DNA of 29,082 nucleotides, taken from the IMG/VR virus record IMGVR_UViG_3300006919_000291, positions 1 to 29,082 of that record; one strand, written 5' to 3'. Below, piece by piece: positions 192 through 28,066 of the stretch (positions within the stretch are counted from its first letter, which is position 1; every line of letters begins with the position of its first letter). The DNA is from a virus. Position numbers and translations under genes: made by a program. The notes beneath the pieces were generated by a model. That model was not told the origin of the DNA. It saw only the letters and a program-made list of their open reading frames with translations, and did not search any database.

Positions 192-503
192 CTATCCATT
201 CTTCCCAAACTTTTGAGAACGAGCAGCACCAGAGCCTCTGGCAACACCGCCGCCTTCCATCTTCTGGATCTTGGTGACACCCCCTGCTGCGTACATCTTT
301 GAACTCATACGCATCTTGTTTGGCATGTTGTTCGGCATCTTGCCGCCACTTTGGGCAAGAAACGCAGGAACCATTTCGCCGTCTTTCTCTGCCATCGGCA
401 TCTTGCCGCCAGACTTGTAGCCCTTAGACTTCATTTTTCCGCCACCGGCATAGCCTTTGGACTTCATCTTGCCGCCAGCCATCATCCCTTTAGACTTCTT
501 CAT
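192..503 (-). CDS. Small Gly/Lys/Met-rich repeat protein
   Basis: This gene encodes 103 residues from the ATG at the 503 end, preceded on the minus strand by a strong GGAGG ribosome site 6 nt away; that site decides the start over an upstream in-frame codon. The first third is a tandem repeat of units like GGKMKSKGY, giving a very basic low-complexity region with no acidic residues. The middle is richer in P, N and M. The C-terminus contains GGGVARGSGAARSQKFGKNG. A similar GG-x-VR-x-x-G-x-A ending occurs in the small protein encoded next to the large terminase. It overlaps the upstream gene by 14 nt and abuts the probable portal gene. The function is unknown. Its place among head genes suggests a virion or assembly role, and the charge suggests nucleic-acid binding; both are inference. 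Confidence 0.75.
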   Translation of the reverse strand: MKKSKGMMAGGKMKSKGYAGGGKMKSKGYKSGGKMPMAEKDGEMVPAFLAQSGGKMPNNMPNKMRMSSKMYAAGGVTKIQKMEGGGVARGSGAARSQKFGKNG

Positions 504-1179
504 CGGAATCCTCCGCATATAAATTGTCAAAAACCCTGTTCACATCCAGCGTGTAGTCAAGATCAGACTTGCTGTAATGAATATGTTGAGACGGGCGAAA
601 ATCTGGTGCGCCCTCTCCTGTCTCAAACCAAGCTGGGTGAGTCACCCTAACTCGATTATTCGGTAACGCTACTATGTTCCCTGTATACGGGCCTGCCTCT
701 AGTAGCTCCATCACATGACTCTGCTTGTGTTGTGCGGGGTCATCTGCAATTTCGTTGTCTGTGTAGTCTACAGTAAACATGTACTTAGCAGGGTAGAACT
801 CTCCGTCCACCTTTGCCAGCCACGGACAGGGTGATGCCCTCTCCAACACATATACCGAATGATCCCGTGATGAGCAATCCCAAGGTTGCGCTGCATATAC
901 AGGCATCGGCTCAGGCCATTCCTCAAAAGGCGTGTCGCCTACCAGTGCGGTGATTGGCATTCTTGCCCACATCGCCCCGCCATGAACATTGGGTTCGTCG
1001 GTGTCGTATGTCTCTGCACCAGTAAATATCAACTGAAAACTCAGGCATCGCTTTGGCATTGTCGTGACAGCAATTGCCATCGCATGAACAAATTCACCGT
1101 GATACTTAGTGTGGTTATGCGTGTATTCCTTTCTCACCCAGCACTTAAAGTACGGGATGTTGCTTTGAAGATATGGCAT
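490..1179 (-). CDS. Conserved phage protein of unknown function
   Basis: The product is 229 residues and starts MPYLQSNIPYFKCWVRKEY. It is rich in aromatic residues and prolines, and has motifs such as GGAMWARMPITALV (about residues 67-80) and a C-terminal region with TGNIVALPNNRVRVTHPAW. No signal peptide or membrane segment is visible. I recognise the style of a protein often seen beside terminases in marine phage contigs, but I know no assigned function. The start ATG immediately follows the TAG of the preceding small gene, with no good ribosome site of its own, so translational coupling is likely. The end overlaps the following Gly/Lys/Met-rich gene by 14 nt. Confidence 0.8.
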   Translation of the reverse strand: MPYLQSNIPYFKCWVRKEYTHNHTKYHGEFVHAMAIAVTTMPKRCLSFQLIFTGAETYDTDEPNVHGGAMWARMPITALVGDTPFEEWPEPMPVYAAQPWDCSSRDHSVYVLERASPCPWLAKVDGEFYPAKYMFTVDYTDNEIADDPAQHKQSHVMELLEAGPYTGNIVALPNNRVRVTHPAWFETGEGAPDFRPSQHIHYSKSDLDYTLDVNRVFDNLYAEDSDEEV

Positions 1180-4969: not shown

Positions 4970-6142
4970 ATGTCCATTAACGCATCAAAGGTCAGCCCTT
5001 CGCAGGCCTCAGAAATGCTGCTGGCACACGCCATCAGTCAACTATCTGGCGGCAAGCGCCACAAGCCCGTGTATCTCTGGGGTACCTACGGCGTTGGCAA
5101 ATCATCCATCGTCAAACAATTGATCACCAAGATTAGCGCCCACTTTGATAAGCCTGTCGGCTTGCTAGATGTTCGCCTGTCACAGTTCGACGCAGTCGAT
5201 ACTCGCGGCATTCCCTACATCCGTGACCAGCGCGATGCGCTCGATGCGGTGGGTAATGACGAAATGGCTGGCATGAGTGACGAAGTGAAACGCGCTGCCT
5301 ATCAGCTACTGTCGGCTGGGCCATCAAAGACTACCGAATGGTCTACGCCATCATGGCTGCCCAATGTGGCGCGTGACGGCGAGTTCGGCATTCTGTTCTT
5401 GGATGAGATACAGCTTGCATGCCAGTCGGTCAAAAATGCTGGATACCAGTTGCTTAATGAGTTCCGCTTGGGCGACTACATCTTGCCTGCTGGCTGGTTT
5501 GTCATTGCCGCATCCAACCGTCCCAATGACGGCGCTGGTGTGTCTGGGCGTATGGATGCTGCTGTAAGCACCCGTTTCAAGTATCACTTGGATGTTATGC
5601 CATCCGCTGCTGAGACCACCGATTACTTTCAAGACATTGGTGTTCGCCCAGAGGTGATCGCGTTCCTGAAGTTTCGCGGTGAGGCTGCCGGTGATCAGGC
5701 TGGACTCATTCATGAGTTCCCCAATGGCGGCACCGCCAAAGACAAGGTTGCTATCGCTACGCCGCGAACATGGGAGTCTGTCAGCGACATCCTTGACGAT
5801 GGCATGGCGGCTGATCTGGAGCACATCGCTATCGAAGGTGCTATCGGCGCTGGTGCTGCTGGCGAGTTTGTCGCGTTCCTCCGCACGATGCGTAACCTGC
5901 CTGACATTGGCATGTTTTTGTCTGACCCGCACAACGTGCCACTGCCCAATGAGATCACCACTCAGTACGCAGTGACCGCTGCGCTGGCTGCGCGGGTGAC
6001 CGCTGACAATCTTGGCAATGGCGTGACCGTTGTGTCCCGCATCAACAACGAACTGCTGGAAGTGTTCTGGATACTGGCAACGCGCCGTGACCCAGACCTC
6101 AAGGCTTCACCTGAGTATGTTGCCCACAAAGCAACCCACTAA
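4970..6142 (+). CDS. MoxR-type AAA+ ATPase
   Basis: The product is 390 residues. Walker A is WGTYGVGKSS (residues 37-46), Walker B ILFLDEIQ (141-148), sensor-1 AASNRP (180-185), and arginines in GRMDAAVSTRF (R194, R202) are candidate finger residues. This layout fits the AAA_5/MoxR group, which remodels or activates partners and usually works with a VWA-domain protein using the MIDAS metal site. Such a VWA protein is encoded two genes downstream. The start is the ATG after a GGAG about 8 nt upstream; an earlier in-frame GTG has no ribosome site. In cellular genomes MoxR-VWA pairs act as chaperones for metal centres or complexes. Its purpose in a phage is unknown. Confidence 0.9.
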   Translation: MSINASKVSPSQASEMLLAHAISQLSGGKRHKPVYLWGTYGVGKSSIVKQLITKISAHFDKPVGLLDVRLSQFDAVDTRGIPYIRDQRDALDAVGNDEMAGMSDEVKRAAYQLLSAGPSKTTEWSTPSWLPNVARDGEFGILFLDEIQLACQSVKNAGYQLLNEFRLGDYILPAGWFVIAASNRPNDGAGVSGRMDAAVSTRFKYHLDVMPSAAETTDYFQDIGVRPEVIAFLKFRGEAAGDQAGLIHEFPNGGTAKDKVAIATPRTWESVSDILDDGMAADLEHIAIEGAIGAGAAGEFVAFLRTMRNLPDIGMFLSDPHNVPLPNEITTQYAVTAALAARVTADNLGNGVTVVSRINNELLEVFWILATRRDPDLKASPEYVAHKATH

Positions 6143-6147
6143 ACCCC

Positions 6148-6175
6148 ACGGGGCTTCGGCCCCCTTTATTTATTT
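6148..6175 (+). terminator. UUCG-hairpin terminator or attenuator
   Basis: Just after the ATPase stop, GGGGC-TTCG-GCCCC (6150-6163) forms a five-pair GC stem closed by a UUCG tetraloop, followed by the U-rich tract CTTTATTTATTTT. This fits a Rho-independent terminator. Because the next gene of the same operon starts 15-20 nt later with a ribosome site inside the tail, it probably acts as a partial terminator or an mRNA processing or stability element that lowers the downstream dose. Confidence 0.65.
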
Positions 6176-6189
6176 TGGAGTAAATAGTT

Positions 6190-7065
6190 ATGGATAAGAT
6201 CCAGAACAACGCAATGCTTATTGCTGCGACGATCAAGAAATTCTCAAACAGCCGCAAAGACACCAGCATATCTGCTGAGGTTGCCGCGACTAAGAACGCC
6301 AACCCCAAGGTCATCACCGTGACCAAGAAACTGCTCGATGCACCTGCCATCAAGGCGCTCAACCGTATCGCTGGGCAGCTTCGCAACTCAGTACTCAACC
6401 CTGTGACCATGCCTTGGGAGGATGGTGTACGCCTGATCACTGTTGACCAGATCGAATCATTTGAGGCTGAGTGGGACAAGAAAGTAGACCGCGCTGAGGA
6501 GCTAAAGCGCGAGGTCATTACCGAATGGCCCAACATCTTGAAGCGTGCCAAAAAAGACCTTGGTGATTCCTTCGATATCTCAGAGCTACCCAGTGCTGAG
6601 TTTGTCGCTGGCAGTTACCAGTTCAGCTACATACTACGCGCCATGCCCGACTCCGGTGATATCAGGGTCAACCTGCCTGCCGACAAGATCGCCAAGATCA
6701 AGGCTCAGGCCGAGTCCGACATCAACAAGCGCGTCGAGTCTGCCGCTGAGTCTGTGCATGAGCGTGTCATCGACACCTTGCAGTCTTTGGTTGACGGCCT
6801 TGAGCGGCACGGTAGCAAGCCTGCTGGTGCCAAACGTGCAAGCAAGTTTGCAGATACCACTGTCGAGAACATCGAGAAGCTTGCTCAGGTTCTACCTTCA
6901 CTCAACATTACCGGCGACCCCAAGCTGGCGCAGGCAAGCAACGCTATCCTGTCTCAGCTTAACGGCCTAGATCCTCAGCGGCTGCGCGACTCATCAACTG
7001 AGCGTCAGGCTGTTGCCAACAAGGCCAAGTCGATTGTCGATAACCTCACCGGCCTTTGGGATTAA
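6190..7065 (+). CDS. MoxR/VWA-associated helical protein (DUF3150-like)
   Basis: The 291-residue product is mostly helical and charged. Motifs I associate with phage proteins found between MoxR and VWA genes are PWEDGVRL (75-82), MPDSGDIRVNLP (152-163) and LPSLNITGDPKL (235-246). From memory this resembles the DUF3150 group; I could not verify that. No catalytic residues, membrane segments or signal peptide are visible. The long helix of residues 164-205 has a coiled-coil character. GGAG lies upstream of the ATG (TTGGAGTAAATAGTT). It sits between the ATPase and the VWA protein on the same strand, so it is likely an adaptor or substrate of that pair. The exact role is unknown. Confidence 0.7.
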   Translation: MDKIQNNAMLIAATIKKFSNSRKDTSISAEVAATKNANPKVITVTKKLLDAPAIKALNRIAGQLRNSVLNPVTMPWEDGVRLITVDQIESFEAEWDKKVDRAEELKREVITEWPNILKRAKKDLGDSFDISELPSAEFVAGSYQFSYILRAMPDSGDIRVNLPADKIAKIKAQAESDINKRVESAAESVHERVIDTLQSLVDGLERHGSKPAGAKRASKFADTTVENIEKLAQVLPSLNITGDPKLAQASNAILSQLNGLDPQRLRDSSTERQAVANKAKSIVDNLTGLWD

Positions 7066-7078
7066 CGGAGAAATAATT

Positions 7079-8410
7079 ATGTCCGCGTTAAACATTATGT
7101 TGAAAGCTCGACGACGCATGCTGCGCGAGTTTCCATACTTTGGCTTCCGACTGCATCAGCTACTGCTGGTGCCTACAACCAAAACCTCGACGATGGCAAC
7201 CGACGGCAAGGCTATCTACTTCAACGAGAAGTGGGTGCCTGAGCAGCACAACATCCACGGCTACAAGTTCATCATGACCGTACTGGCTCATGAGATTATG
7301 CATGTTGATGGGTTCCATCACCTGCGTAAGGGCAGCCGTGATCACAAGCTTTGGAATGAGGCTGCTGACTACGCCATCAACTACGCGCTAGTGCGTGAGG
7401 GCTTTGAGGTTCACGATGGCCTGTACAGCACCGACTACATTGGCAAGTCTGCTGAACAGGTGTACACCATCCTCGAAAGCCAGCGCAGCACTGAGGCCGA
7501 CAAGCCCAGCACCGGCAACGGTGGCGCTGACGATGATGACTCAGGCGATGGCGCTGCCGATGGGGATACCCCTGATCAGGGCGACAGTGGCTCTGAGGGC
7601 GGCTCTGACGGCGATACCGGCGATGCTGGCGACACTGGCACCTCTGGTGACGGCGACGGCCCTGCTGACCCTGACGCGCCTTGGGGTGAGGTCTGGGAAG
7701 GCACCAACAATGACGGCACCGCAATGTCTGCTGATCAGAAAGCTTCTGTGCAGCGTGAGATCACCAGTCAGATATTTGAGGCTGCAAAGGCTCAGGATAA
7801 AATCAAGGGCAAAGGTGAGGGCCGTGGCGCTGCTGTTGACCAGATCATCAGTGGCGTATCCGGTGACCCTGTCCCTTGGTTCGAGCATCTTAAAGATGCG
7901 TTCTCTGACTACGTTCTGACTGAGCACACCTTTGCTCGACCAGAGCGCCGACTGCTCTCGCAGGGCATGATCTTGCCGACGCAGGAGCGTGAGCCTAACG
8001 GCGAGCTTGTTGTGTCGGTAGACACCAGCGGATCAATGGGCCAAGACGAGCTAGACGCTATTGCGGGCCATGTGCAGGACATCATCGATGAGATCAACCC
8101 TATTAAGACTGTGGTGATCTACTGCCACCATGTCCTCTGCGGCGTCGAGGAGTTTGATCGGCATGAGGAGCTAACGCTCAGGATTCCTGAGACCGGCGGC
8201 ACGGCGTTCAACCCACCGTTCAACTACGTTGCGCGTGAGGGCTTGGAGCCATGCGCGATGATCTACTTCACCGATGGCTGGGGTGACGTTGGGCCAGACG
8301 GCTGGCATGACTTCAGTGATCCAGACTATCCGGTGATCTGGGCAACGACAGACCGTGAGCCTTTATTCGCTGGGTGCGAACCCTTCGGTGAGGTGATACG
8401 GGTTACATAA
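7079..8410 (+). CDS. Metallopeptidase-like and VWA-domain protein (DUF2201 type)
   Basis: The 443-residue product has two recognisable parts. The N-terminal part carries HEIMH (71-75), followed by histidines at 80-81 and WNEAADYAIN (92-101), a zinc metallopeptidase-like pattern of the DUF2201 N-terminal family. An acidic, Gly/Asp-rich linker (about 143-200) is low complexity. The C-terminal VWA domain has the MIDAS signature DTSGS (315-319) and a later TDG (398-400), with a threonine-rich TGGTAF between. The start ATG follows CGGAG about 9 nt upstream. Family knowledge pairs such proteins with MoxR ATPases, here encoded two genes upstream. Whether the HExxH part cleaves anything is not shown by the sequence. 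Confidence 0.88.
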   Translation: MSALNIMLKARRRMLREFPYFGFRLHQLLLVPTTKTSTMATDGKAIYFNEKWVPEQHNIHGYKFIMTVLAHEIMHVDGFHHLRKGSRDHKLWNEAADYAINYALVREGFEVHDGLYSTDYIGKSAEQVYTILESQRSTEADKPSTGNGGADDDDSGDGAADGDTPDQGDSGSEGGSDGDTGDAGDTGTSGDGDGPADPDAPWGEVWEGTNNDGTAMSADQKASVQREITSQIFEAAKAQDKIKGKGEGRGAAVDQIISGVSGDPVPWFEHLKDAFSDYVLTEHTFARPERRLLSQGMILPTQEREPNGELVVSVDTSGSMGQDELDAIAGHVQDIIDEINPIKTVVIYCHHVLCGVEEFDRHEELTLRIPETGGTAFNPPFNYVAREGLEPCAMIYFTDGWGDVGPDGWHDFSDPDYPVIWATTDREPLFAGCEPFGEVIRVT

Positions 8411-9442: not shown

Positions 9443-9500
9443 TTGACCACTGGAGTCTATTAGGTTCTAATCACTGAACTCCTGCACGACCCACCCCCTG

Positions 9501-9538
9501 CCAAGCATCCCCTGCTTGGTTAGGGGGAACCCCCCCTA
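9501..9538 (+). terminator. Candidate terminator at end of plus-strand block
   Basis: CCAAGCA-tcccc-TGCTTGG (9501-9519) is a perfect seven-pair hairpin. It is immediately followed by TAGGGGG-aa-CCCCCCCTA (9521-9538), a second GC-rich inverted repeat. Both are placed 60 nt after the last gene of the block. A long U tract is missing, so a bidirectional or Rho-dependent end is possible. Confidence 0.45.
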
Positions 9539-9608
9539 GTTTATTGACCAATCAATAAGTAAAAAAGTTTGCGTCCTGCATCCTTTACAACTCCCATATG
9601 AAAACAAC

Positions 9609-10010
9609 ATTTCGATAGCTCGACACCAAACAGGTACGTCTTGCGCCCAAAATCTGGGATGAGTTCCAGTATCGTGTTAGTCATCCTGCCTCACGGTTTT
9701 TGATAGCCCACCTACAACTGTGTTTTGCATCACCACTGGCACACACAACACCGCTATTGGAAGCGACGCTGGTAACGTAACGACGGGTACTTACAACACG
9801 GCTATAGGTGACCAGCGGTGTTAGTGCCTACAGGCTGTTTTTGATAGCCCACCCCCAAGCCGGACAGAAAATACACCAAGGGTCACAAAAACATTTCTGT
9901 CGGTGATAAGAATATTTATGTATTCCTGCTCAGTCAGTAAGACCAAAGGTATCTACAACACACCTATAGGTGCTATGTGGAATAAGGCTTTGCGGGGTTT
10001 TTTGATAGCC
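9609..10010 (+). repeat. Direct repeats with tail-fibre-like relics
   Basis: TTTTTGATAGCC recurs at about 9697, 9838 and 9998 (spacing 140 and 160), with a degenerate copy at about 9610. Between them, reading frames contain fragments such as TGTHNTAIGSDAG, TGTYNTAIGDQ, GHKNISVGDKN and GIYNTPIG, all fitting the G-x-x-N-x-x-I-G repeats of phage tail fibres. The frames carry stops, lack ATG starts with ribosome sites, and shift between copies. The first and last lie in one frame, each opening with VFDSPP or a similar peptide. This looks like a decayed gene or a store of fibre segments. No intact gene was found in this 630-nt stretch (9443-10071). Confidence 0.55.
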
Positions 10011-10071
10011 AGTTATTAGCTACCAACTTCTGCGTTTTTCTACGCGAATGTGCGTAAGTTGCTTGTGGTTG

Positions 10072-18312: not shown

Positions 18313-18500
18313 GCGACGAAGAAACAAAGGAAAGTGTTGAAGAGTTTCTGGCAAGTGGCGGCGAGATCGAACAAGTGCCGTTTGGTAAAAGAAAGTACAA
18401 AGAAGACTGGGAACCTTGGGAAAAACCAGACAGAGGTTTGTCTTTCAAGGTGTTGCAAAATATCCGTAAAAACCGCCGCAAAGCAAGAGGACTCTCCTAG
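18309..18500 (+). CDS. Small FLAxGG-motif protein, copy 2
   Basis: The 63-residue product carries ESVEEFLASGGEIEQVPFGK, a second copy of the motif in the preceding gene, and ends in a basic segment (NIRKNRRKARGLS). The pair probably arose by duplication. Its stop overlaps the stop of the convergent giant gene by 4 nt, with no terminator between, so the two transcripts would collide or overlap. Confidence 0.65.
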   Translation: MSDEETKESVEEFLASGGEIEQVPFGKRKYKEDWEPWEKPDRGLSFKVLQNIRKNRRKARGLS

Positions 18501-21500
18501 AGAAGGTTGGATATCCTGTTAGCTATAGTCTCTGTTGCCGTGGGTAGTTCTATGTATCTTTCTAGCTGCGGGACGATGCTCAGGTAGTACTGCTCTTGAG
18601 TATTGATAAACCTCATCTGCTCCTGCTTCTGATCTGCCGTCAGGTCAGACTTCAATAAGGTTCTACGCTGCTTCCTGAGATCTGCAAGCGCACTGGCTGT
18701 AGGCTGTAGCTGCTTCCTCAGACCTATGAACTGCTTTTTATTTACCAAGAAACTCTCAAGCTCATCAAACCTACCTTGGTCTTGCAGCAGCTTGGCTGCA
18801 TTCTCGGTACGCTTGATGTAGTCCCACATCTCGTAGAAGTCTTCTTTGTTACCGCCACCAAACTCACTAGCAAAGAACCTTCGTATGACCGGATACTGAG
18901 AGACATCGGTTCCAGCAAGCACCGCTCTGTTGTCTCCTTGCAGGGTGGTGCCTCTCAAGCCATAGTCAACGGCACCCAAGAAATAAGATCCAATTGTGCC
19001 GCCGTAGCCTTTCATCAAATGATCTAGTTTGATCGGGCTTATGCCCAAGACCTTTGCCATGTTCTTGGCAACCTCTGTTGTAGAGGCAAGCTCTTGAAGC
19101 TCTGGCGGCAATGATGAATCTATAAATACGGGAGTTACAGGTCTACCCGTGTAGAGGTCGTAGTTCATGTACGCCTCCATGATCGGGGTTATTGCCTGCG
19201 GGGGTTGAACGCCAAGCGTACCAAACACTGCTCGGCCTATTGATTGCTGCGCCTCTCTGGCAGTTGTGCCTTCGTTGTAAGAATCAATGATCCGCTCAGG
19301 CAGCGTCTTGAAGATAAGGCCAACCTCAAACGGGATTGGTATTCTGACTGGCACACCAGACGGCGTGGGTATTAGCCAATAGTTGTCTTTTACTTCTTCG
19401 GTCTGCTCTTTGTACTGCTCATCATCACTAACCATTGTGTAGTAAATGGCTGTACTAGCAGCTATCAAAGATCCTCTGGCGATAAAGCTCATGGCTGCCT
19501 GAGAGCGTGAAAGGTCTCTATTGGCAGAGCTTTTACCTGTACCGGCCCGTGCAAGGACATCTAAGCCTTGTATCCTAGCGTTCAAGAAAGGAATCGTTGC
19601 TGTAACCAATCGCATAACAGGACTGCTGCCACGGCGACCAAAGTTCAACACCTCCATCGCTTGATAGCTGGCCTCTGCTTCATTACCTGTACGAGCTAAT
19701 ACATCGTTGTAAACAGCGTTTCTAGTAGCAGCGTCTGAACGGGTTGTCGCCTGACCAAGAAAATCCCAACCGCCGATAAAGAGTTTACTAAGAAGCCCTC
19801 TTTGATCTACGTTCTTGTTGCGAGTTTGAAGTATCTTTCCTGCGTACTCGCCAATGTTTTCTGGGTCATTCTTGTAGTCATAACCGCCTACAACACCTGT
19901 CCTTTCAAGCTTCTCCATGCCTTCAGCGTAACCAAAGACAGTGTCAACTATTGGCACAAAGCTAGATCCAGAGGTAACAAACGCAGACAACGAATCACGC
20001 AGCATGTTTGCAATAACAAACCCCGGCTCCCGTGTAACCATCTCTCGTAAAAAACGGGATGGGAAACCCAGTATCTTAGAAACTTCACGCTCTACCCCAC
20101 CGGCAGGCTCAACAGTCAACGACTCATATATTAACGGGTCATCAATAATGAACTTACGTCTATTGCCGTTGACCTTGAAGGTGACAACAGCCTCGCCTGT
20201 AGTGTTCTGTCCGGGCTTGACCTCTCTTGCTAAACCAATGTTTCTCATGTCCCTGACAATGCGTTGCTGGGCAACATTCTTCATGCCCATGCTAATCGCT
20301 GCGTTCAGGTTCATGGATATTGCTTCCAAGAGCGGCACGTTAACTTCTTTTTCGCTGCCTTTGATTGCCTTTAGGTCTGCGCTTGCAGTCAGGCCGCCAA
20401 AGATGTTCGGCGCGTTTGGGGTGTCGGCACCTTCTACTTGACGATAGAAAGGCACATAGTCTGACTGGTCTTGCCACATCTCTGCGGTCTCTGCATCAAC
20501 AACACCCGTATCTTTGAGAAACTGAACGGTGTAGCCGTTGTAGTCCTGCCAAGCGTCATACCAGTCCTTGACTATTGAGTTGCCATTCTCATCCAAGAAA
20601 GACTCTGCGGTTGCAATGTTAGCTGCATGATCTGCCGGGGTTCCCGGTACGGCTATGCCTTTTGCTCGCAAACGCTCGGATCTCTTAGCTATTGAGTATG
20701 CCTGAGCCATTTGCTCAAGAGACCCATGCTCCTTGGTGTACAGCATAGACATCAGGTCTATAAGGCCACCAATCTTTCTGGTCTCGCCACGGCTATTGAT
20801 GTGGTTGAAATCCGCTATCTTAGTCATGCCACCTGTGTACACAGGGACACCGTACTGAAGAGCGGCTGCGGTTATCGCGTTAGCCCTGTCAGCGTTCAAA
20901 GCGGCAGCCAAGGACGATGAGTCAGCAAGCAAGTTGCCAAGCATGCCTTGGTAGTTTTCTAGCTGGGCATACCTATTGACTGCTGCCTGTTTAGCCTTGG
21001 TCAACCACTTGGCTATCGGCCCTTGGTCTAAGACGTTGAGGTAGGTCTGTCCGGGGGTGTTTGTGGGTAGGTCTGCAACAACATTATCTATTGCAGCTTG
21101 AGCAGCAGGATTGACCTGTGGTGAGTTAGACCTAGAGAAAGCAGGCATTTCACTATCTGAAAGCTCTTGGCCTTTGTCTGGGTCGGCTGCTACAGCTTGT
21201 GCATATGGATCTGCGCCGGGATTAAATCGTGGCACCGTGCCTGCGGGACGATTCTCTGCTATTTGTAGATTGTCGGCTACAACACGGTCAACTTCACTCT
21301 GACCTATTACTTCTTTGCGCTTGTATTTATCAAGCAGGTTGAATGGAAGCCCTACGTCTTCAGTCGGTATCGGTCTGGCAGCATCGCCTCTTCCTCTGCG
21401 CCTAGAGGCTGAGTCGGGTCTCGGTCTGGGTACGCCGCCATCAGATAGTTTTCTCTCGTAAGTGGCTGCTTGGTCGCCTTCAGGTATCCCTCCGTCAGAT

Positions 21501-24500
21501 CGTTCCCAGTCGGGCGGCTTGATTTGTCCTGCATGTTCATAGATGGCCTCTCTAGCCTGATCCAGCGTTATCTGCTTTTTATTATACTGCTTCCATATAC
21601 TGTCTACAACTTCCACATTACTGTTTTGAGACTTGTACTCTGGTCGGAAGAGGCCTCTGACCGCTTCCCATGTAATGGACTGCATCTCTCTAGGTAAAAC
21701 ACCGCGCTCGTTAGCAGCACGGCGGTAGGCTTCCTCGTAGATTGAGTACACGCCGTTTAGGCCCGTAATGCTTGACGATGAACCCTTCGTTCCAAAATTG
21801 TGAGAAACCTCAAATGCACTGCCGCCAAGAGGTTTAAGAAGCCCTGCCGCAACGGCATGGGTGTCTATGGTTACATAGCCAAGATCCGAGTCTGGATCGA
21901 ATATGTTGTTGTAAAAGTTTCTGACTTTGTTTGCCGAACCAAGCGATGCAGATATAGCGTCAATGTCAGTTTCTCTTAGGGCTTTGATTGACTTGGCTAT
22001 CTCAGTTAGAGATCCCCAAGCCACCTTAGAGTTGCTACCGTCAGAATTCTTTGCGTAGTCGAGAAGTCTGCCGTCAGGGGATACAATCCTGTAGCTAGGG
22101 TCGTTATAGGTCTGGTCAAAAGTCCTGATCCACATAGCGCCTAGCTGCTCACCTTGCCCCGGCTCATTGAATTTATCCAGTACTTGATCAAGGGAGCTAG
22201 AGCCTATCAGAGTAAGCATCTCACGATTTCTGGCTTGACCCTTGGCGCTTATACCATCATGAAAGAATATTTCTTCGGCGCGAGCTTTCATCTCAGGAGT
22301 AAAAGGCTGCCCTGCGTGATCAAAGAACGTATCAATAGTTCTCTCTGCGAGCGAGGCGTTTTGATACCAGTCCTTTTGCGGAGACAGGTTGGCTGCAACA
22401 GCAGCAGCTTGTTGCATGGTTAAGTTGTGACGTTCTGCAAATCTACGGACTAAAGCGTTTGCGCCTTTGTACCAAACCTTCGAGTTATTACGGGTATCAG
22501 CCGGAACCCTGTCATATATATTGAGCAGATTATTCTTAACAAGCTCAACAAACGCCTCTGCTTTTTGTTTATCTGATCTTAGGTCTTTTGATTTCTGTAG
22601 TATCGGATAGAGGTTAGCGTCTTTGATAAGCTCCATGTTCTTGCCAAAGACCTTGCCGTCAGCAAGAAAGGTTTCGTAGTCATTGACTAGTAAGTCTTCA
22701 AGAGGGTCTTCTTTTGATCTGGCGGCTGTGGGGTATCGGGTACTTACATTACCCTCTATACCGCCCTGTTCAGCGGCTCGCCTAGAGAACATAGGTGATT
22801 CTTCAAAGCCGTCCCTGCCTTCACGGGATGTCCACTCAGGCATCAAGCCCATCTTCTGGTCAGCAAAGACGGTGTCTAGTACACCAGCGCCTTGGTTTTG
22901 CTCGCCATATGGGCCGTAGTTCAGCCAGCTATTCTGCCCCCTAGTCTCAGACGTAAGTGCCTGTAACGCTGGGCCAGTGAATAGTTTGGCGTGTGCCTGC
23001 CATGCATTTTCCTCACCGCGAGCGCGGAATCCAGCACCTTCTATGCCGTGACCAAATGCGTCATGTACAGCCCTGAATAAGTCGTTGTTGGTGACTATTT
23101 GCTTTCGACCTAGCTGATCTTTCCATCGCAACCCTGTGTCACGCAACATAACCCTGTTTGGATCGCCTATATCGTTATAGAAGTCATCTAAGGTGCCGTA
23201 GCCGTCATAAGTGCCATAGACGGACATGCGTTTGTTGCCGCGCAAGTCCCGCATTGCGTTGTACGGGTTGCCGTCATAAGGGTCTGTGTCTGAATCATAG
23301 AAATCAAACTCAAAACCTTCGTCAATCAAGGCATCGTATTGGTTGCGTGTTTGCCTAGCCAGATCCTCATAAGCATCCCTAACATTAGGATCAGTGGGAT
23401 CATCAGCCATCTCCTCATAAGCCTGCGCTATCCGAGTGGCTCTCTCTGGGTCTACCCTTACATATTCCGATTGTCTGGCAAGCGGGATGCCATAGGTCTC
23501 TGCATATCGCTCTGCTGCGGCATTGACTGCTGGGTCTGGCCCCGTGGCCCCTGCCCTGATCGGCGCTCCTTCGAGCGGCGTTCTGCTTGCACCCTGATCT
23601 TCTGTCGGCGCAACGCCTCGTGCCTGATCGCGTCCTCTTCCGTCTCTTCCGCGTTGGGATCGTACATTGTCGCCTCCAAGGCTTGATATGTTTCTGGAGA
23701 AAGCTGGAGACTCACCAAAGTCTCGCTCTACTGGATCTACATAGCCTTCGCGCCTTGGAAGGTCAGATACGCCAGCAGCCTCTGATATGGCTCTAGATTC
23801 TTTGTCTGTAAGGATCTTTGTGACTTTGATACCGCCACTAATCATCCAATTTTCAAACATATTGGGATTAGTCTTGTAACGGTAGTAGCCGTTTTCCGGC
23901 ATTTGATCCGTTATGTCAGCCGTGGTTACGTCTAGCTCGCCATTAGCTTTAGTTCTGGCGTTGGCGTTAGCTATCGTTTGCCAGTCAAAGTCGGCGGGTA
24001 CTTCTATTTCTGCCCATACCTGATCGTCTTTTCTAAAGTCTGGCCTAGAAAGCTTCTTGCTGGTCTTGCCGCCTATGTGCGGAGCCATAGGTAAATCGCC
24101 GGAATGAAATCCCGGTCTAAACGCCACGCCTTGTATCGCTTTAACATCCGGGTTTTTAATAACACCAAGGTCAGCCAATCTTTGGGCCTCTTCCGGGCTT
24201 ACATTGACCCTGCCGCCAGTTGTTGCTTTTACATAGGGCTTTCCATTTGCCCCCATGAAAAACCCTTTGGCTCCTTCCGTTCTTGGGTCTGTTGCCTTTA
24301 TCCACTCTCCAGTAGGAATTGGCGTAGCACCTTCAACAAACAGCGGGTAAATCTGCCCGTCTTTGTAGTTAAAAAGCTTGTATGCCTTTACTACATTTAC
24401 TGGCTCTTTCATCGGCTTAGGACGGCGAGAAAAGTTGACCTCTTCTGCCGCCTTAACATCTTGAGCGTTATCAGCTATCTCGGATTCTTCAAAGTCAGCA

Positions 24501-27500
24501 ATGGTTTGACCTGCCTGCGCGGCACGTTCTGCCTCTTCGCCGGTAGTGATGACTGTGCCGGGGGGCGGTTTGGCTAGGGTTCTAGATACGACCTTCTCTG
24601 TTTGGGCAAAGGTTCTTATCTCGCCTCTCTGCCTGCCACCTATGGTGCCTGAGCCTATGCCGCCGATAACCTCGCTGAAGGTATTGAATTGCTCGCCTCT
24701 AAGGGCTGAGACCATGTTCCTAAAGAACCTAGCTATGCGCTCTACAAGGGATCTTGGCTTGCCCTGTAAGAGTTTACTGTCTTCTCTTGCTCGCCTGACT
24801 AACTCAGCAACAGATTCTTCTGCCTGATCTACTGGGCTTAAGTCATCGTAGTTGTTTTGTGCCCATTTGAGGAATGTCTGTGGCTTGCCATCTCTGTCTT
24901 TGGTGGGGTGTATCTTCTTGCTTGCTGCCCTTGAGAGAAGATTCCATTCTTTGTTGGTGAACAGATCCAGCTTACGCATGGCATGGATCATTTCGTGATC
25001 TAGAAGAGCCAGTAATTCTGCTTCTACCTGAGCATCTGTCAGGGTCTTACCCTGCATAGCTTTGTCTATTGACAAGAAAATAGTATTTATTCTTGGGTCG
25101 TAGTAAGCCTCTGCTCTGTCCTCTGGGTCTGCCTGATCAGACCGAACAAGCTGGGTCTTGGCTTCTCTAGCTAAAGCGGCCTCACCACCAATGACATCTG
25201 CATCTATATCGCCGCCCTGTCTAGGCCTTATGCCGTAAACAAGGTTGCCATCAGGATCTTTAACTGCCGTCCTAAGCGCATAATCTAGGCTTAGGCCAAC
25301 GTCCTTCAAACCAAACCCTGTCATAACCTTCTTGATTGCAGAGCGTAATCGGTCAACGTCTACTGATGGCGCAGGCAGAGCGAGTGTTTCTTGTTGCTGC
25401 TCCACCACAGACTCAACTGGAGCAACCGGCTCCACACCCTGTTTGGCAATGTCCTTACGCAACTCCTGCATAGACTCAGCGCCACTTTTGGTCGCTATGT
25501 TTATACCTGTGGCGTTAGCTAAGACTATTTCGCCTGCATCTGGGCTTTCTTGCAGGGCTTGGACAGCAGCACGGAACTGCGCCCCTGTGTACTTGGGCAG
25601 CTTGAATGTGGGCAGCTTGGTGGGCTTGTCAAATCGTGGCAGTGATCTAAGACGTTGATATAGCAGCCTAGCCTCAGCAACAGACAGGTCGTTTACCGAC
25701 TTGATCGTCTTCTTGCCAAGAATTCTAGACGCAAGGTACTTGACCTCTGGAGATCCCACTTTGGAGGTTATGTTCTTTGCTTCTAACAGCGACTGCATCT
25801 CTTGGAAGTTGCCATCGACGTTACGCATAACGCCTTTTTCGACGGCAGCCTTGCCAGTGGCGTTGTTTAGTTGGTTGGCATAAACCCTAGCATCAGCCTC
25901 GGTCTTGAACTTAACCAGCTTAGGCGGCTTCTTCTTGGGGTTTGCTTTGATTTCAGCGTCTTTCTCTAGGACGGTCAGAGGTCTGCCCTGAAGCACCTCG
26001 CCTGCGCTGCTCCTGATAATAGGGTTGCCAGCTTTACTGAGATCAGCCTTGTACGTTTCTGTCTCTGGAAGACCATTTACCCGTGTATCGGTAAGGTTAT
26101 ATAGCTGGTCTTCTTTCAGTACGCTTCTGACTTCTTCAATGGTGAAGTTGTTTGTTACTGGCAGACCCTTACGCAGACGCTTCGCATTGATGCGCTGAGA
26201 GGCGGTCATCTTGGACGGCCCTACACGGTTTTCTACCAGTGTTTTGACATCAGCAACCTCATCAAAGCCACGGTCTTGTGTGGTCTCTGCCGCGCTATCT
26301 ACGGCAACAGATGTATAGGTGTTGGAGTCGGGGTGGTTTACAGCGAAGTTGTAGGACTGAAGTGTAGAAGCTTGATCTGTGTCATACGCTTCTGGGGATG
26401 TAGAGATAACTGCATCACCGGCAGAAAAGACGTTGTCGTTGATGATTTCGTCATTAAGAAACCCAGCAAGAGCGAAGGCATCTTCTGAGTTGTTGAGTGG
26501 TATGCCGAACTGCTGACCAGAACTGTCTTGTACAGTAAAGACGGGAGCGCCAGTCTCATCTAGCTGCGTGGTGTCTCCTAAAGCACCGCCAAACTCTTGC
26601 GGCAGGTTGACCGTGAATGAGTTGTCTGCTGACGGGAAACTGTCGCCCATTGTCTGGCGTATCTGTTGAGCATAGGCAAGCATTGGCTGCTTTGGGTATC
26701 GCCTTTGAATGCCTGCGGTAGGCTCTGCGACAGTGGTGATCTGCAAGCCTGTCTGCTGAGGCACACCATTCACGGAGGTAATCACCTCGCCGCCACCGGG
26801 AACCTCAACAAAGGTTGTGACCTGCTCTGTAGGCTTGCCTTTGTTTCTTATTCTGGTCTTTTCTTCTGCTTGGAAGGTCTGGCCTGATGCATCAGATATG
26901 TTAACTATTCTTGCAGGAGTCTTTAACTTGGTTGTGAGCGCCCTGCCTGTGGGTGGAGCTATCTGAGCGGGATCTATCTCTGCTCCAGCAGCCTGCCTAC
27001 GGGCCTCAGCGGCAGCCTTTACGTCTAGATTAGACTGAGCGTCTATACGAGCTTGTTCTGCAAGGTCTTTGGGTAGGTTTGCCTGCCTTTGGTTCTGGGC
27101 ATCTTCTAGGTCTTCTCTTTTCTTTCTCTCTGCTTCTTCTGAGGACTTGAAGGCATCTTTGTTGCGCCTTCCAGCTACAGCGTTCAAGACTAAGTCAGCA
27201 CCTGCACCGACAGCACCGCCAACGGTGAAGTCATCCATCAGGTTGCCACCGCCAACCTCCAGAGCCTCGTTGTATACGCCCTTCTCAACAGCGTCTTGCA
27301 ACAGACTTGCGGTTACTTCCTGAACGCCCTCAACCGTACCTGACATCAGGGCTGACCTAAGACGTTGACTGATGCCAGAAGGTAGCTGATCACCCGCTTC
27401 TAGGCCTCTAAGCCTGCGCAAAAGCCTTACAGGCGTAGCAAGCTCTGACAGGCCCACCATAGTGCCGCCGACAATAGCAGCGTCTTCCTGCCCCTCAGAG

Positions 27501-28066
27501 ACATCAAGACCTGCGTCACGGGCAGCTTGTATTCTTTGTGCTTGATCACCAGCGCCTGTGCCTGCCGCTAGTATGCCAGCGGCTCCTAGCTCACCAGCCT
27601 GAACCGCTCTGCTTGCCTGTATGCCCTTGCCAGCCAGACCAGCAAGCCGCACCGCTGCGGTGGGGGTGAAGAACGATGCAAACGAGCCAACACCTTCGCC
27701 AAACTTGGTAAGCCATTGATCTCTATAGGCTGCATCAGCCCCCATAGACTCTTCTATTGCAGCACGGCCTTCTCTTGCAGCGCGAACCAAGTCATTCTCT
27801 TCGCCGCTATCTATTAAGTCCTCAAGGCCTACTGCGTTAGTGCCTGCATCCGCAAGCTCTGCAAGACCTTCGCCAGCAGACAAGAACGCATTGGCAAAAC
27901 CGCGACCTACACCCTTGGCAGTCTCAAAGGCTTGACCAGAGGCGGTTCTCTCTCTCTCGTAATAAGCCTGAAAAAGCTCCTCAGCATCTTGAGGCGTTGG
28001 AGGAGAATCGCCGGTTACACTAATAGTTTCGCCGGTAACGGTGTCTGTCAGAGTGTAATCTGGCAT
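18497..28066 (-). CDS. Giant polyvalent virion-type protein, 3189 residues
   Basis: This one gene is a third of the window. Modules, in order, are an N-terminal region with alanine/glycine-rich hydrophobic stretches (about 128-205, 275-295), a coiled-coil-like segment (306-365), a zincin-like domain with HEMIH (1024-1028), a domain with YKLFNYKDG and RPGFHSGDLP (about 1225-1410), a domain with HDAFGH (1668-1673) and a TRGQNSWLNY segment, a domain with LSPQKDW (near 1894) and VTIDTHAVA (from 2065; DUF7178-like from memory), and a C-terminal region with LREMVTREPG (near 2674) and an LPD38-like end. FSR motifs at F1212, F1456, F1760 and F2310 fall between modules. Such proteins are ejected with phage DNA or carried in the virion; activities here are inference. 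The ATG lies two bases after the upstream stop. Confidence 0.8.
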   Translation of the reverse strand: MPDYTLTDTVTGETISVTGDSPPTPQDAEELFQAYYERERTASGQAFETAKGVGRGFANAFLSAGEGLAELADAGTNAVGLEDLIDSGEENDLVRAAREGRAAIEESMGADAAYRDQWLTKFGEGVGSFASFFTPTAAVRLAGLAGKGIQASRAVQAGELGAAGILAAGTGAGDQAQRIQAARDAGLDVSEGQEDAAIVGGTMVGLSELATPVRLLRRLRGLEAGDQLPSGISQRLRSALMSGTVEGVQEVTASLLQDAVEKGVYNEALEVGGGNLMDDFTVGGAVGAGADLVLNAVAGRRNKDAFKSSEEAERKKREDLEDAQNQRQANLPKDLAEQARIDAQSNLDVKAAAEARRQAAGAEIDPAQIAPPTGRALTTKLKTPARIVNISDASGQTFQAEEKTRIRNKGKPTEQVTTFVEVPGGGEVITSVNGVPQQTGLQITTVAEPTAGIQRRYPKQPMLAYAQQIRQTMGDSFPSADNSFTVNLPQEFGGALGDTTQLDETGAPVFTVQDSSGQQFGIPLNNSEDAFALAGFLNDEIINDNVFSAGDAVISTSPEAYDTDQASTLQSYNFAVNHPDSNTYTSVAVDSAAETTQDRGFDEVADVKTLVENRVGPSKMTASQRINAKRLRKGLPVTNNFTIEEVRSVLKEDQLYNLTDTRVNGLPETETYKADLSKAGNPIIRSSAGEVLQGRPLTVLEKDAEIKANPKKKPPKLVKFKTEADARVYANQLNNATGKAAVEKGVMRNVDGNFQEMQSLLEAKNITSKVGSPEVKYLASRILGKKTIKSVNDLSVAEARLLYQRLRSLPRFDKPTKLPTFKLPKYTGAQFRAAVQALQESPDAGEIVLANATGINIATKSGAESMQELRKDIAKQGVEPVAPVESVVEQQQETLALPAPSVDVDRLRSAIKKVMTGFGLKDVGLSLDYALRTAVKDPDGNLVYGIRPRQGGDIDADVIGGEAALAREAKTQLVRSDQADPEDRAEAYYDPRINTIFLSIDKAMQGKTLTDAQVEAELLALLDHEMIHAMRKLDLFTNKEWNLLSRAASKKIHPTKDRDGKPQTFLKWAQNNYDDLSPVDQAEESVAELVRRAREDSKLLQGKPRSLVERIARFFRNMVSALRGEQFNTFSEVIGGIGSGTIGGRQRGEIRTFAQTEKVVSRTLAKPPPGTVITTGEEAERAAQAGQTIADFEESEIADNAQDVKAAEEVNFSRRPKPMKEPVNVVKAYKLFNYKDGQIYPLFVEGATPIPTGEWIKATDPRTEGAKGFFMGANGKPYVKATTGGRVNVSPEEAQRLADLGVIKNPDVKAIQGVAFRPGFHSGDLPMAPHIGGKTSKKLSRPDFRKDDQVWAEIEVPADFDWQTIANANARTKANGELDVTTADITDQMPENGYYRYKTNPNMFENWMISGGIKVTKILTDKESRAISEAAGVSDLPRREGYVDPVERDFGESPAFSRNISSLGGDNVRSQRGRDGRGRDQARGVAPTEDQGASRTPLEGAPIRAGATGPDPAVNAAAERYAETYGIPLARQSEYVRVDPERATRIAQAYEEMADDPTDPNVRDAYEDLARQTRNQYDALIDEGFEFDFYDSDTDPYDGNPYNAMRDLRGNKRMSVYGTYDGYGTLDDFYNDIGDPNRVMLRDTGLRWKDQLGRKQIVTNNDLFRAVHDAFGHGIEGAGFRARGEENAWQAHAKLFTGPALQALTSETRGQNSWLNYGPYGEQNQGAGVLDTVFADQKMGLMPEWTSREGRDGFEESPMFSRRAAEQGGIEGNVSTRYPTAARSKEDPLEDLLVNDYETFLADGKVFGKNMELIKDANLYPILQKSKDLRSDKQKAEAFVELVKNNLLNIYDRVPADTRNNSKVWYKGANALVRRFAERHNLTMQQAAAVAANLSPQKDWYQNASLAERTIDTFFDHAGQPFTPEMKARAEEIFFHDGISAKGQARNREMLTLIGSSSLDQVLDKFNEPGQGEQLGAMWIRTFDQTYNDPSYRIVSPDGRLLDYAKNSDGSNSKVAWGSLTEIAKSIKALRETDIDAISASLGSANKVRNFYNNIFDPDSDLGYVTIDTHAVAAGLLKPLGGSAFEVSHNFGTKGSSSSITGLNGVYSIYEEAYRRAANERGVLPREMQSITWEAVRGLFRPEYKSQNSNVEVVDSIWKQYNKKQITLDQAREAIYEHAGQIKPPDWERSDGGIPEGDQAATYERKLSDGGVPRPRPDSASRRRGRGDAARPIPTEDVGLPFNLLDKYKRKEVIGQSEVDRVVADNLQIAENRPAGTVPRFNPGADPYAQAVAADPDKGQELSDSEMPAFSRSNSPQVNPAAQAAIDNVVADLPTNTPGQTYLNVLDQGPIAKWLTKAKQAAVNRYAQLENYQGMLGNLLADSSSLAAALNADRANAITAAALQYGVPVYTGGMTKIADFNHINSRGETRKIGGLIDLMSMLYTKEHGSLEQMAQAYSIAKRSERLRAKGIAVPGTPADHAANIATAESFLDENGNSIVKDWYDAWQDYNGYTVQFLKDTGVVDAETAEMWQDQSDYVPFYRQVEGADTPNAPNIFGGLTASADLKAIKGSEKEVNVPLLEAISMNLNAAISMGMKNVAQQRIVRDMRNIGLAREVKPGQNTTGEAVVTFKVNGNRRKFIIDDPLIYESLTVEPAGGVEREVSKILGFPSRFLREMVTREPGFVIANMLRDSLSAFVTSGSSFVPIVDTVFGYAEGMEKLERTGVVGGYDYKNDPENIGEYAGKILQTRNKNVDQRGLLSKLFIGGWDFLGQATTRSDAATRNAVYNDVLARTGNEAEASYQAMEVLNFGRRGSSPVMRLVTATIPFLNARIQGLDVLARAGTGKSSANRDLSRSQAAMSFIARGSLIAASTAIYYTMVSDDEQYKEQTEEVKDNYWLIPTPSGVPVRIPIPFEVGLIFKTLPERIIDSYNEGTTAREAQQSIGRAVFGTLGVQPPQAITPIMEAYMNYDLYTGRPVTPVFIDSSLPPELQELASTTEVAKNMAKVLGISPIKLDHLMKGYGGTIGSYFLGAVDYGLRGTTLQGDNRAVLAGTDVSQYPVIRRFFASEFGGGNKEDFYEMWDYIKRTENAAKLLQDQGRFDELESFLVNKKQFIGLRKQLQPTASALADLRKQRRTLLKSDLTADQKQEQMRFINTQEQYYLSIVPQLERYIELPTATETIANRISNLL
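21352..21540 (-). CDS. Nested +1-frame ORF in giant-gene linker
   Basis: A 62-residue frame lies inside the giant gene on the same strand, shifted by one. It begins MNMQDKSSRPTGNDLTEGYL after GAGAGG, about 6 nt upstream of the ATG. It ends LPDRYRLKT. In the main frame this stretch is a Gly/Asp/Pro/Arg-rich linker (around residues 2177-2238). Either an overlapping gene or a by-product of base composition; the ribosome site is the main support. Confidence 0.25.
   Translation of the reverse strand: MNMQDKSSRPTGNDLTEGYLKATKQPLTRENYLMAAYPDRDPTQPLGAEEEAMLPDRYRLKT
23458..23667 (-). CDS. Second nested +1-frame ORF in giant-gene linker
   Basis: A 69-residue frame starting MYDPNAEETEEDAIRHEALR has GGAGG five bases before its ATG. 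It is shifted the same way as the other nested frame and lies in the linker after the FSR motif at residue 1456, where the main frame is repetitive (RGRDGRGRDQARG). The helix-like EEDAIRHEALRRQKIRVQAE is more protein-like than the main frame. It is unproven. Confidence 0.3.
   Translation of the reverse strand: MYDPNAEETEEDAIRHEALRRQKIRVQAERRSKERRSGQGPRGQTQQSMPQQSDMQRPMASRLPDNRNM

Follow-up and report, generated by a model that had tools for sequence, protein, structure and literature searches.

The marine viral record analysed here (29,082 bases; this whole stretch of DNA is the window) carries on its plus strand a three-gene operon for a MoxR-type AAA+ ATPase, a middle protein (MID) and a protein joining a putative zincin metallopeptidase domain to a VWA domain (zincin-VWA protein). 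The operon is real and conserved; it belongs to the MoxR/VWA kind but includes a third subunit that has drawn little notice. The preferred reading, with a probability of about 0.45, is that it encodes a ternary ATP-driven remodelling machine for an intracellular client shared by phages and conjugative elements. The triad is located on many plasmids, and its job is therefore probably inside the cell and common to mobile DNA elements, rather than the building of virus particles. An earlier sequence-only reading had placed three linked genes in a row at this position, and they are confirmed as consecutive plus-strand open reading frames (ORFs), each preceded by a GGAG-type ribosome site.

Linkage of the three genes on phages and plasmids

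Single-protein tblastn searches match 329 phage records with the VWA protein, 484 with MoxR and only 3 with MID. The first 28 viral loci from a search with MID alone all contain MoxR upstream; 25 of them also have VWA downstream, and the sequence of the remaining 3 stops within MID. Wider MID scans bring the total to 176 loci, in two viral sets of 32 and 71 and a genome set of 73; in 142 of the 176, MoxR and VWA are both on the same strand as MID. A neighbour is counted as the nearest hidden Markov model match (E value 1e-3) that shares the strand and lies inside the fetched locus; the loci, many of them from Burkholderiaceae, are not independent. Where at least 3.5 kb is available on both sides, MoxR and VWA are both present in 9/9, 33/40 and 46/54 loci of the three sets. 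The gene order is mostly MoxR-MID-VWA, besides MID-MoxR-VWA and MoxR-VWA-MID. Co-occurrence in other phages, on which the sequence-only reading had made itself depend, is thus found in many viral records. One or both terminase families are matched in 19 of the 30 viral records tested, and the 11 others may be fragments or misfiled plasmids. Gene trees agree only partially with the triad as one moving unit, sharing 7 to 10 of 15 splits.

The set was described as phage-borne, which is correct as far as its presence in phages goes, but it is not special to them, since plasmids and bacterial contigs carry it just as regularly. A first scan of genome contigs with the phage MID gives no relative. 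With the Rhodovastum MID as the query, 42 plasmid records are matched, and the VWA gene follows directly downstream of MID on the same strand in 40 of these (coordinates compared by eye). MoxR, MID and VWA are neighbours in this order in nine plasmid regions (L041 to L043, L045, L046 and L051 to L054), small genes separate MoxR from MID on a Simplicispira plasmid, and on several plasmids the triad is located between PRTRC genes and type IV secretion genes. A Burkholderia cenocepacia plasmid (L048, 3739-6448) contains an IS21 element inside MID; MoxR and VWA remain, with VWA further on. The Manganitrophus plasmid record shows no VWA within the region read.

Two further plasmid records hold the pair of MoxR and VWA genes. 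In the Synechocystis PCC 6803 plasmid pSYSA (L047, 6955-9233), the two genes overlap and MID is absent, which makes this pair an easy laboratory model. Besides MoxR/VWA genes, the Acinetobacter "plasmid" pRBH2-3 (L049) encodes a DNA-directed RNA polymerase; the record may stem from an N4-like phage.

Plasmids make no virions, and virion maturation, one of the roles suggested by the sequence-only reading, is therefore unlikely to be the general role of the triad. An assembly or maturation chaperone-protease has been proposed for the MoxR and metallopeptidase-vWA pair of group 2.2 jumbo phages (Iyer 2021, PMC7824862; all papers are cited from the portions of their text available here). Furthermore, the MoxR protein p618 of the archaeal virus ATV is a virion protein that binds the VWA protein p892 (PMC4124505), and the phAPEC6 virion list includes an ATPase of 49.52 kDa with 6 peptides, which matches the 121Q MoxR gp563 by mass (49.51 kDa) and gene neighbours. 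The VWA partner has a mass of 54.06 kDa, and the available portion of this list shows no protein of about that mass at the expected place; the presence of thymidylate synthase in the list indicates possible co-purification. In the window, the operon is on the opposite strand to the terminase genes, which lie to its left on the minus strand. As an account of the triad in general, virion assembly is thus quite unlikely; for jumbo phages it may still hold, given the MoxR relative that is probably in the phAPEC6 list.

A second motor class accompanies MID in loci without MoxR and VWA. A classical AAA ATPase is located upstream within 4 kb in 13/14 well-flanked and 3/9 cut loci of this type, and in 0/142 triad loci. 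A DUF1257 neighbour of this classical AAA branch is confirmed by Pfam in one scanned case (L127) and is annotated beside the Manganitrophus MID. The exception to the upstream pattern is L185, a strong MID homologue (1.1e-80) with flanks containing neither MoxR and VWA nor the second AAA class.

A related set is found on pCAR1, where a CbbQ-type MoxR, a DUF3150 protein (PF11348, E value 8.3e-92) and a VWA protein are encoded in a row (ORF101-103) in the order and single-strand arrangement of the triad. The components differ from those of the window: the MoxR is of the CbbQ/NorQ type with the corresponding C-terminal domain, the DUF3150 protein has 399 amino acids (aa) and a weak similarity to MID (hhalign probability 22%), and the VWA protein is CoxE/CobT-like without a zincin domain. 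The MoxR and VWA of this set were already noted in PMC2642839, the available portions of which do not describe the middle protein; the genes ORF100-103 are conserved across IncH and IncT plasmids and SXT/R391 elements according to the same paper. Deletions of SXT bet, exo, s067, s068 and s070 lower transfer at most 10-fold (PMC2791158); these genes may or may not include those for MoxR, DUF3150 and VWA, and they are not used as evidence. MID is most likely a dedicated AAA+ partner, mainly because DUF3150-like proteins accompany AAA motors of more than one class.

Conserved and variable parts of the three proteins

The sequence of MID matches no Pfam, PHROG or PADLOC family, and its best NCBIfam match (E value 0.35) is at chance level within the limits used; neither the window MID nor those of related phage records match PF11348 (DUF3150) directly. 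The description of this protein as DUF3150-like can therefore not be read from its own sequence and holds through profile intermediates. The phage MID aligns with the plasmid MID profile, which also contains the two phage MID proteins of MinM2 and L039, at an hhalign E value of 1.3e-60 across 275 columns. This plasmid profile matches the Manganitrophus DUF3150 protein at 8.2e-23, and the latter matches PF11348 at 1e-8; a Cupriavidus protein reaches 1.1e-4, under the cut-off. By this full-length profile similarity through intermediates, MID is classed as a member of the DUF3150 superfamily.

The helical character ascribed to MID by the sequence-only reading is retained in part, as the predicted structure is mostly but not wholly helical (predicted local distance difference test score, pLDDT, 81.6; predicted template modelling score 0.50). 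Foldseek returns no PDB match for this model at an E value of 0.001 or better, VIA aligns residues 160-291 only with generic helical bundles (best Z score 9.4), and the profile matches solved structures no better than 0.4. A fold claim for MID was dropped, since the structure searches give only generic helical bundles.

The N-terminal half of MID differs sharply among close relatives. In four chosen locus pairs of the window clade, the first 600 nucleotides (nt) of MID are 61-68% identical, compared to 83-96% in the flanking 300-nt windows; a fifth pair (L011 and L006) shows a milder dip to 81-85%. The pairs were picked by hand, 5 for nucleotide identity and 8 for codon analysis. The N-terminal halves of MoxR and MID sort independently, with all four combinations found among L013, L015, L016, L019, L020 and L022. 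The sharp block and this free assortment identify an exchange of the MID N-terminal half as a block by recombination between close phage relatives. Positive selection as a cause of the variation was rejected, as the synonymous rate is as saturated as the nonsynonymous rate is high in the same windows, which therefore indicates block exchange and not measured selection.

This block exchange may reflect client recognition, and it bears on counter-defence and host takeover, which stay candidates among the roles first suggested. Here, the target of the machine would be a defence complex or a regulatory complex of the host, to be stripped, unfolded or cleaved, and the exchangeable part of MID would track changing targets. 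Such a role fits one domain being exchanged in otherwise close relatives and the fact that both carriers, phages and plasmids, meet host defences. Furthermore, none of the three proteins is assigned to a defence family by PADLOC, and the operon is therefore not itself a known defence system. Block exchange is, however, common in phage genomes for other reasons too, no neighbouring known anti-defence gene is identified, and the pair is core to 25/25 N4-like genomes compared in 2014 (PMC4193335), which is unusual for a target-specific counter-defence. A counter-host role of this kind is regarded as unlikely.

The MoxR and zincin-VWA identities given by the sequence-only reading are borne out by strong family matches. 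The window zincin-VWA protein matches PF13203 (putative metallopeptidase) at 4.9e-29 and PF09967 (VWA-like) at 4.8e-15, with 102.2 and 56.2 bits compared to cut-offs of 23.2 and 26.4 bits in the DUF2201 test, and phrog_1314 at 8.2e-73. The latter family is labelled "HNH endonuclease," a label copied by many phage records, yet its members are DUF2201 metallopeptidase-VWA proteins. The whole model of the protein is poor (pLDDT 56.6) and does not show the zincin half with confidence; the VWA half is usable and aligns with the CD11b I-domain in VIA over 130 residues (Z score 11.1, root mean square deviation 3.0). Profile relatives of either half were too weak to be accepted (Ro60 at 0.0039 for the VWA half; an M48 peptidase at 0.087 and MJ1213 at 0.013 for the zincin half). 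The metzincin label was likewise rejected: the window motif reads HExxHxxGxxH, but its glycine is not conserved in the homologue alignment.

The metallopeptidase residues were reported as intact, and HExxH, D97 and every MIDAS residue are indeed intact in the window protein; some relatives have lost the zinc site. The residues H71, E72, H75 and D97 are kept in 146 of 159 scorable VWA proteins and lost in 13, with seven letter patterns. In the five proteins of the LKQQ pattern, both histidines, the glutamate and D97 are gone together, and this joint loss suggests D97 as the third zinc ligand. The MIDAS motif is strictly intact in 146/149 scorable proteins, the remaining 3 showing a T-to-S change. 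Eleven plasmid VWA proteins, from 63 plasmid records, are among those scored. As the zinc site is lost in relatives that keep MIDAS, VWA function appears from these alignments to be constant and the zincin optional, and peptidase chemistry would not always be needed.

The window MoxR matches phrog_1297 at 7.2e-59 and Pfam AAA at 6.5e-5, and it contains the Walker A, Walker B and sensor 1 motifs of AAA+ ATPases. A variable stretch is found where the MoxR helix-2 insert would be expected, as judged at the sequence level from the alignment of 23 homologues. Walker B reads DE in 31/31 scorable MoxR proteins of phage set A; the glutamate is replaced by aspartate (DD) in 53/56 scorable MoxR proteins of the genome set and in 10/11 plasmid MoxR proteins (e.g., L045 and L046). 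The MoxR proteins of L011, L016 and L022 show GVYAASKS or GIYAAAKS at Walker A, compared to the usual GxxxxGKS.

Features and surroundings of the operon

The features of the operon are listed in Table 1. The hairpin separating MoxR from MID, GGGGCTTCGGCCCC, is invariant in 11/11 loci of the window clade and found in 0/3 of the next clade; it could, as a guess, be a read-through device that keeps the amounts of MID and VWA below that of the MoxR ring.

Table 1. Positions of genes and motifs of the operon in the window
Feature	Position	Strand	Details and basis
MoxR-type AAA+ ATPase	4970-6142	+	390 aa; phrog_1297, Pfam AAA, alignment of 23 homologues
Walker A GTYGVGKS, residues 38-45	5081-5104	+	Sequence and homologue alignment
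Walker B (LFLDE), Asp145-Glu146	5402-5407	+	Homologue alignment
GGGGC-TTCG-GCCCC hairpin, terminator- or attenuator-like	6150-6163	+	Between MoxR and MID genes
MID, putative DUF3150 superfamily	6190-7065	+	291 aa; profile chain via plasmid MID
MID N-terminal part, exchanged as a block among relatives	6190-6670 (approximate limits)	+	Nucleotide identity, codon analysis
Zincin-VWA protein	7079-8410	+	443 aa; PF13203 and PF09967, alignment of 20 homologues
HEIMH (HExxH), residues 71-75	7289-7303	+	Sequence, homologue alignment
Acidic Gly/Asp/Ser linker joining the two domains	7496-7693	+	Sequence; pLDDT < 50
MIDAS DxSxS (DTSGS), residues 315-319 (D315, S317, S319)	8021-8035	+	Sequence, alignment
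MIDAS completing residue T375	8201-8203	+	Sequence, alignment
MIDAS completing residue D399	8273-8275	+	Sequence, alignment

No close DNA relative of the window is found among 50,697 phage records (first 25,000 bases compared). The closest terminase relative is that of the Pelagibacter phage HTVC027P, with 57% identity; in MinM2, the terminase of which is 49% identical to that of the window, MoxR, MID and VWA are all present with small genes in between. To the right of the operon, a primase-helicase is encoded on the minus strand, and a plus-strand group 5 to 9 kb away contains exonuclease, Sak-like annealase, SSB-like and NinB-like genes.

Further observations concern other parts of the window. 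The element TTTTTGATAGCC occurs three times (9697-9708, 9838-9849 and 9999-10010), compared to an expectation of 0.11 and three copies in 0/100 shuffles, and is also found in L001, L003, L004, L006, L008, L009 and L011. Close to each copy is a degenerate repeat of 25 nt, the translation of which would be G-x-x-N-T-x-I-G, and no ORF of at least 50 aa begins within 9500-10070. Pieces of a 3189-aa ORF (18497-28066, minus strand) match PHROGs mostly of unknown function, with one weak tail-fibre match. A 229-aa protein (490-1179, minus strand) matches phrog_3704 "ferredoxin," yet an HTVC027P protein with which it shares 30% identity carries a PurM annotation; one of the two labels is probably wrong.

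A proposed ternary remodelling machine and its relatives

Phages were already known to carry the MoxR/zincin-VWA pair; the little-noticed component is the third one. The pairs of the jumbo phages and of N4 (gp24/gp25) resemble the window in their homologous MoxR (phrog_1297) and zincin-VWA (phrog_1314) proteins, usually encoded close together, but they show no MID homologue by tblastn and occur alone or with unrelated small genes; gp24 and gp25 of N4 are adjacent. The 2014 comparison lists gp24 as "unknown," and the CRISPRi-ART paper, which has N4 among its phages, does not treat gp24 and gp25 in its available portions. No description of the third component is found in the papers searchable for DUF3150, DUF2201 or MoxR/vWA with phage or plasmid.

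The MoxR-vWA-centric ternary conflict systems of bacteria (PMC7159879) share the ternary logic with a distinct third protein, which is VMAP, iSTAND, FtsH or a beta-propeller protein there and DUF3150-like in the triad. MID shows no match to any of these in Pfam, NCBIfam and PADLOC, although these libraries may lack a model for some of them and remote homology is possible. A conflict system between elements, excluding competing phages or plasmids, would fit the layout of MoxR, vWA and a variable third component, the mobile carriers, and the position of the pSYSA MoxR/VWA pair near PIN- and HepT-labelled genes. Apart from the zincin, however, no effector domain is present, the window MoxR is below the cut-off of the bpMoxR Pfam model (14.5 compared to 27 bits), and the PADLOC matches are at chance level, which leaves this explanation a slim chance.

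NorQ/NorD and RavA/ViaA likewise combine an AAA+ protein with a MIDAS-VWA protein; the triad differs by its additional third subunit and HExxH domain. According to the model for NorQ/NorD, a finger of the VWA protein plugs the MoxR ring and MIDAS binds an acidic patch of the client (PMC9976466). Metal-cofactor insertion or enzyme activation in host metabolism, as in NorQ/NorD or CobS/CobT, would agree with this shared anatomy and with the CbbQ/NorQ C-terminal domain of the pCAR1 MoxR. The chance of such a role is slimmer still: the annotated regions read show no metalloenzyme gene recurring next to the operon, and Pfam and NCBIfam scans match the third component to no activase subunit.

For the remodelling machine preferred here, roles can be assigned by analogy. 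The three proteins would act as a physical complex in which MoxR would form an AAA+ ring and the C-terminal VWA domain would bind the client via the MIDAS metal and couple it to the ring, as proposed for NorQ/NorD. MID would be the dedicated AAA+ partner, an adaptor with an exchangeable N-terminal part that would select or hold the client and a conserved C-terminal helical part that would dock on the core. As for the zincin domain, it would be an option and not the engine, and it may cleave the client or simply assist in holding it. As plasmids carry the same set, the client would be an intracellular complex met by phages and conjugative elements inside the cell during DNA establishment, replication or recombination. 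The annealase, exonuclease and SSB genes near the operon in the window and on pCAR1 (SSB, RecT and lambda-type exonuclease genes 10 to 16 kb beyond the set) point weakly to DNA establishment or recombination.

Some points weigh against the remodelling machine as described. That recombination genes are located nearby is seen in two elements and has no statistical backing. The jumbo-phage relative of MoxR, probably part of a virion proteome, fits virion assembly. Lastly, HTVC027P, the nearest cultured phage by terminase, contains no triad protein in the 50.0 of 57.6 kb read, and the set is therefore dispensable in that lineage.

A wider proposal, tentative and rather doubtful, regards DUF3150 as the general third subunit of mobile-element AAA+ remodellers, with either MoxR and VWA or the classical AAA branch. 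The N-terminal half in phages would then be an exchangeable client-recognition domain with turnover driven by the host. Phages, plasmids and integrative elements would thus all carry the operon as an ATP-powered, programmable machine directed at the host.

The MoxR/VWA genes are core genes in N4-like phages even though they are listed as being of unknown function. A third subunit that is also found on plasmids and accompanies two AAA motor classes turns attention away from virion construction and towards a task inside the cell, and the triad provides bait proteins and model elements (N4, pCAR1 and pSYSA) for finding the client.

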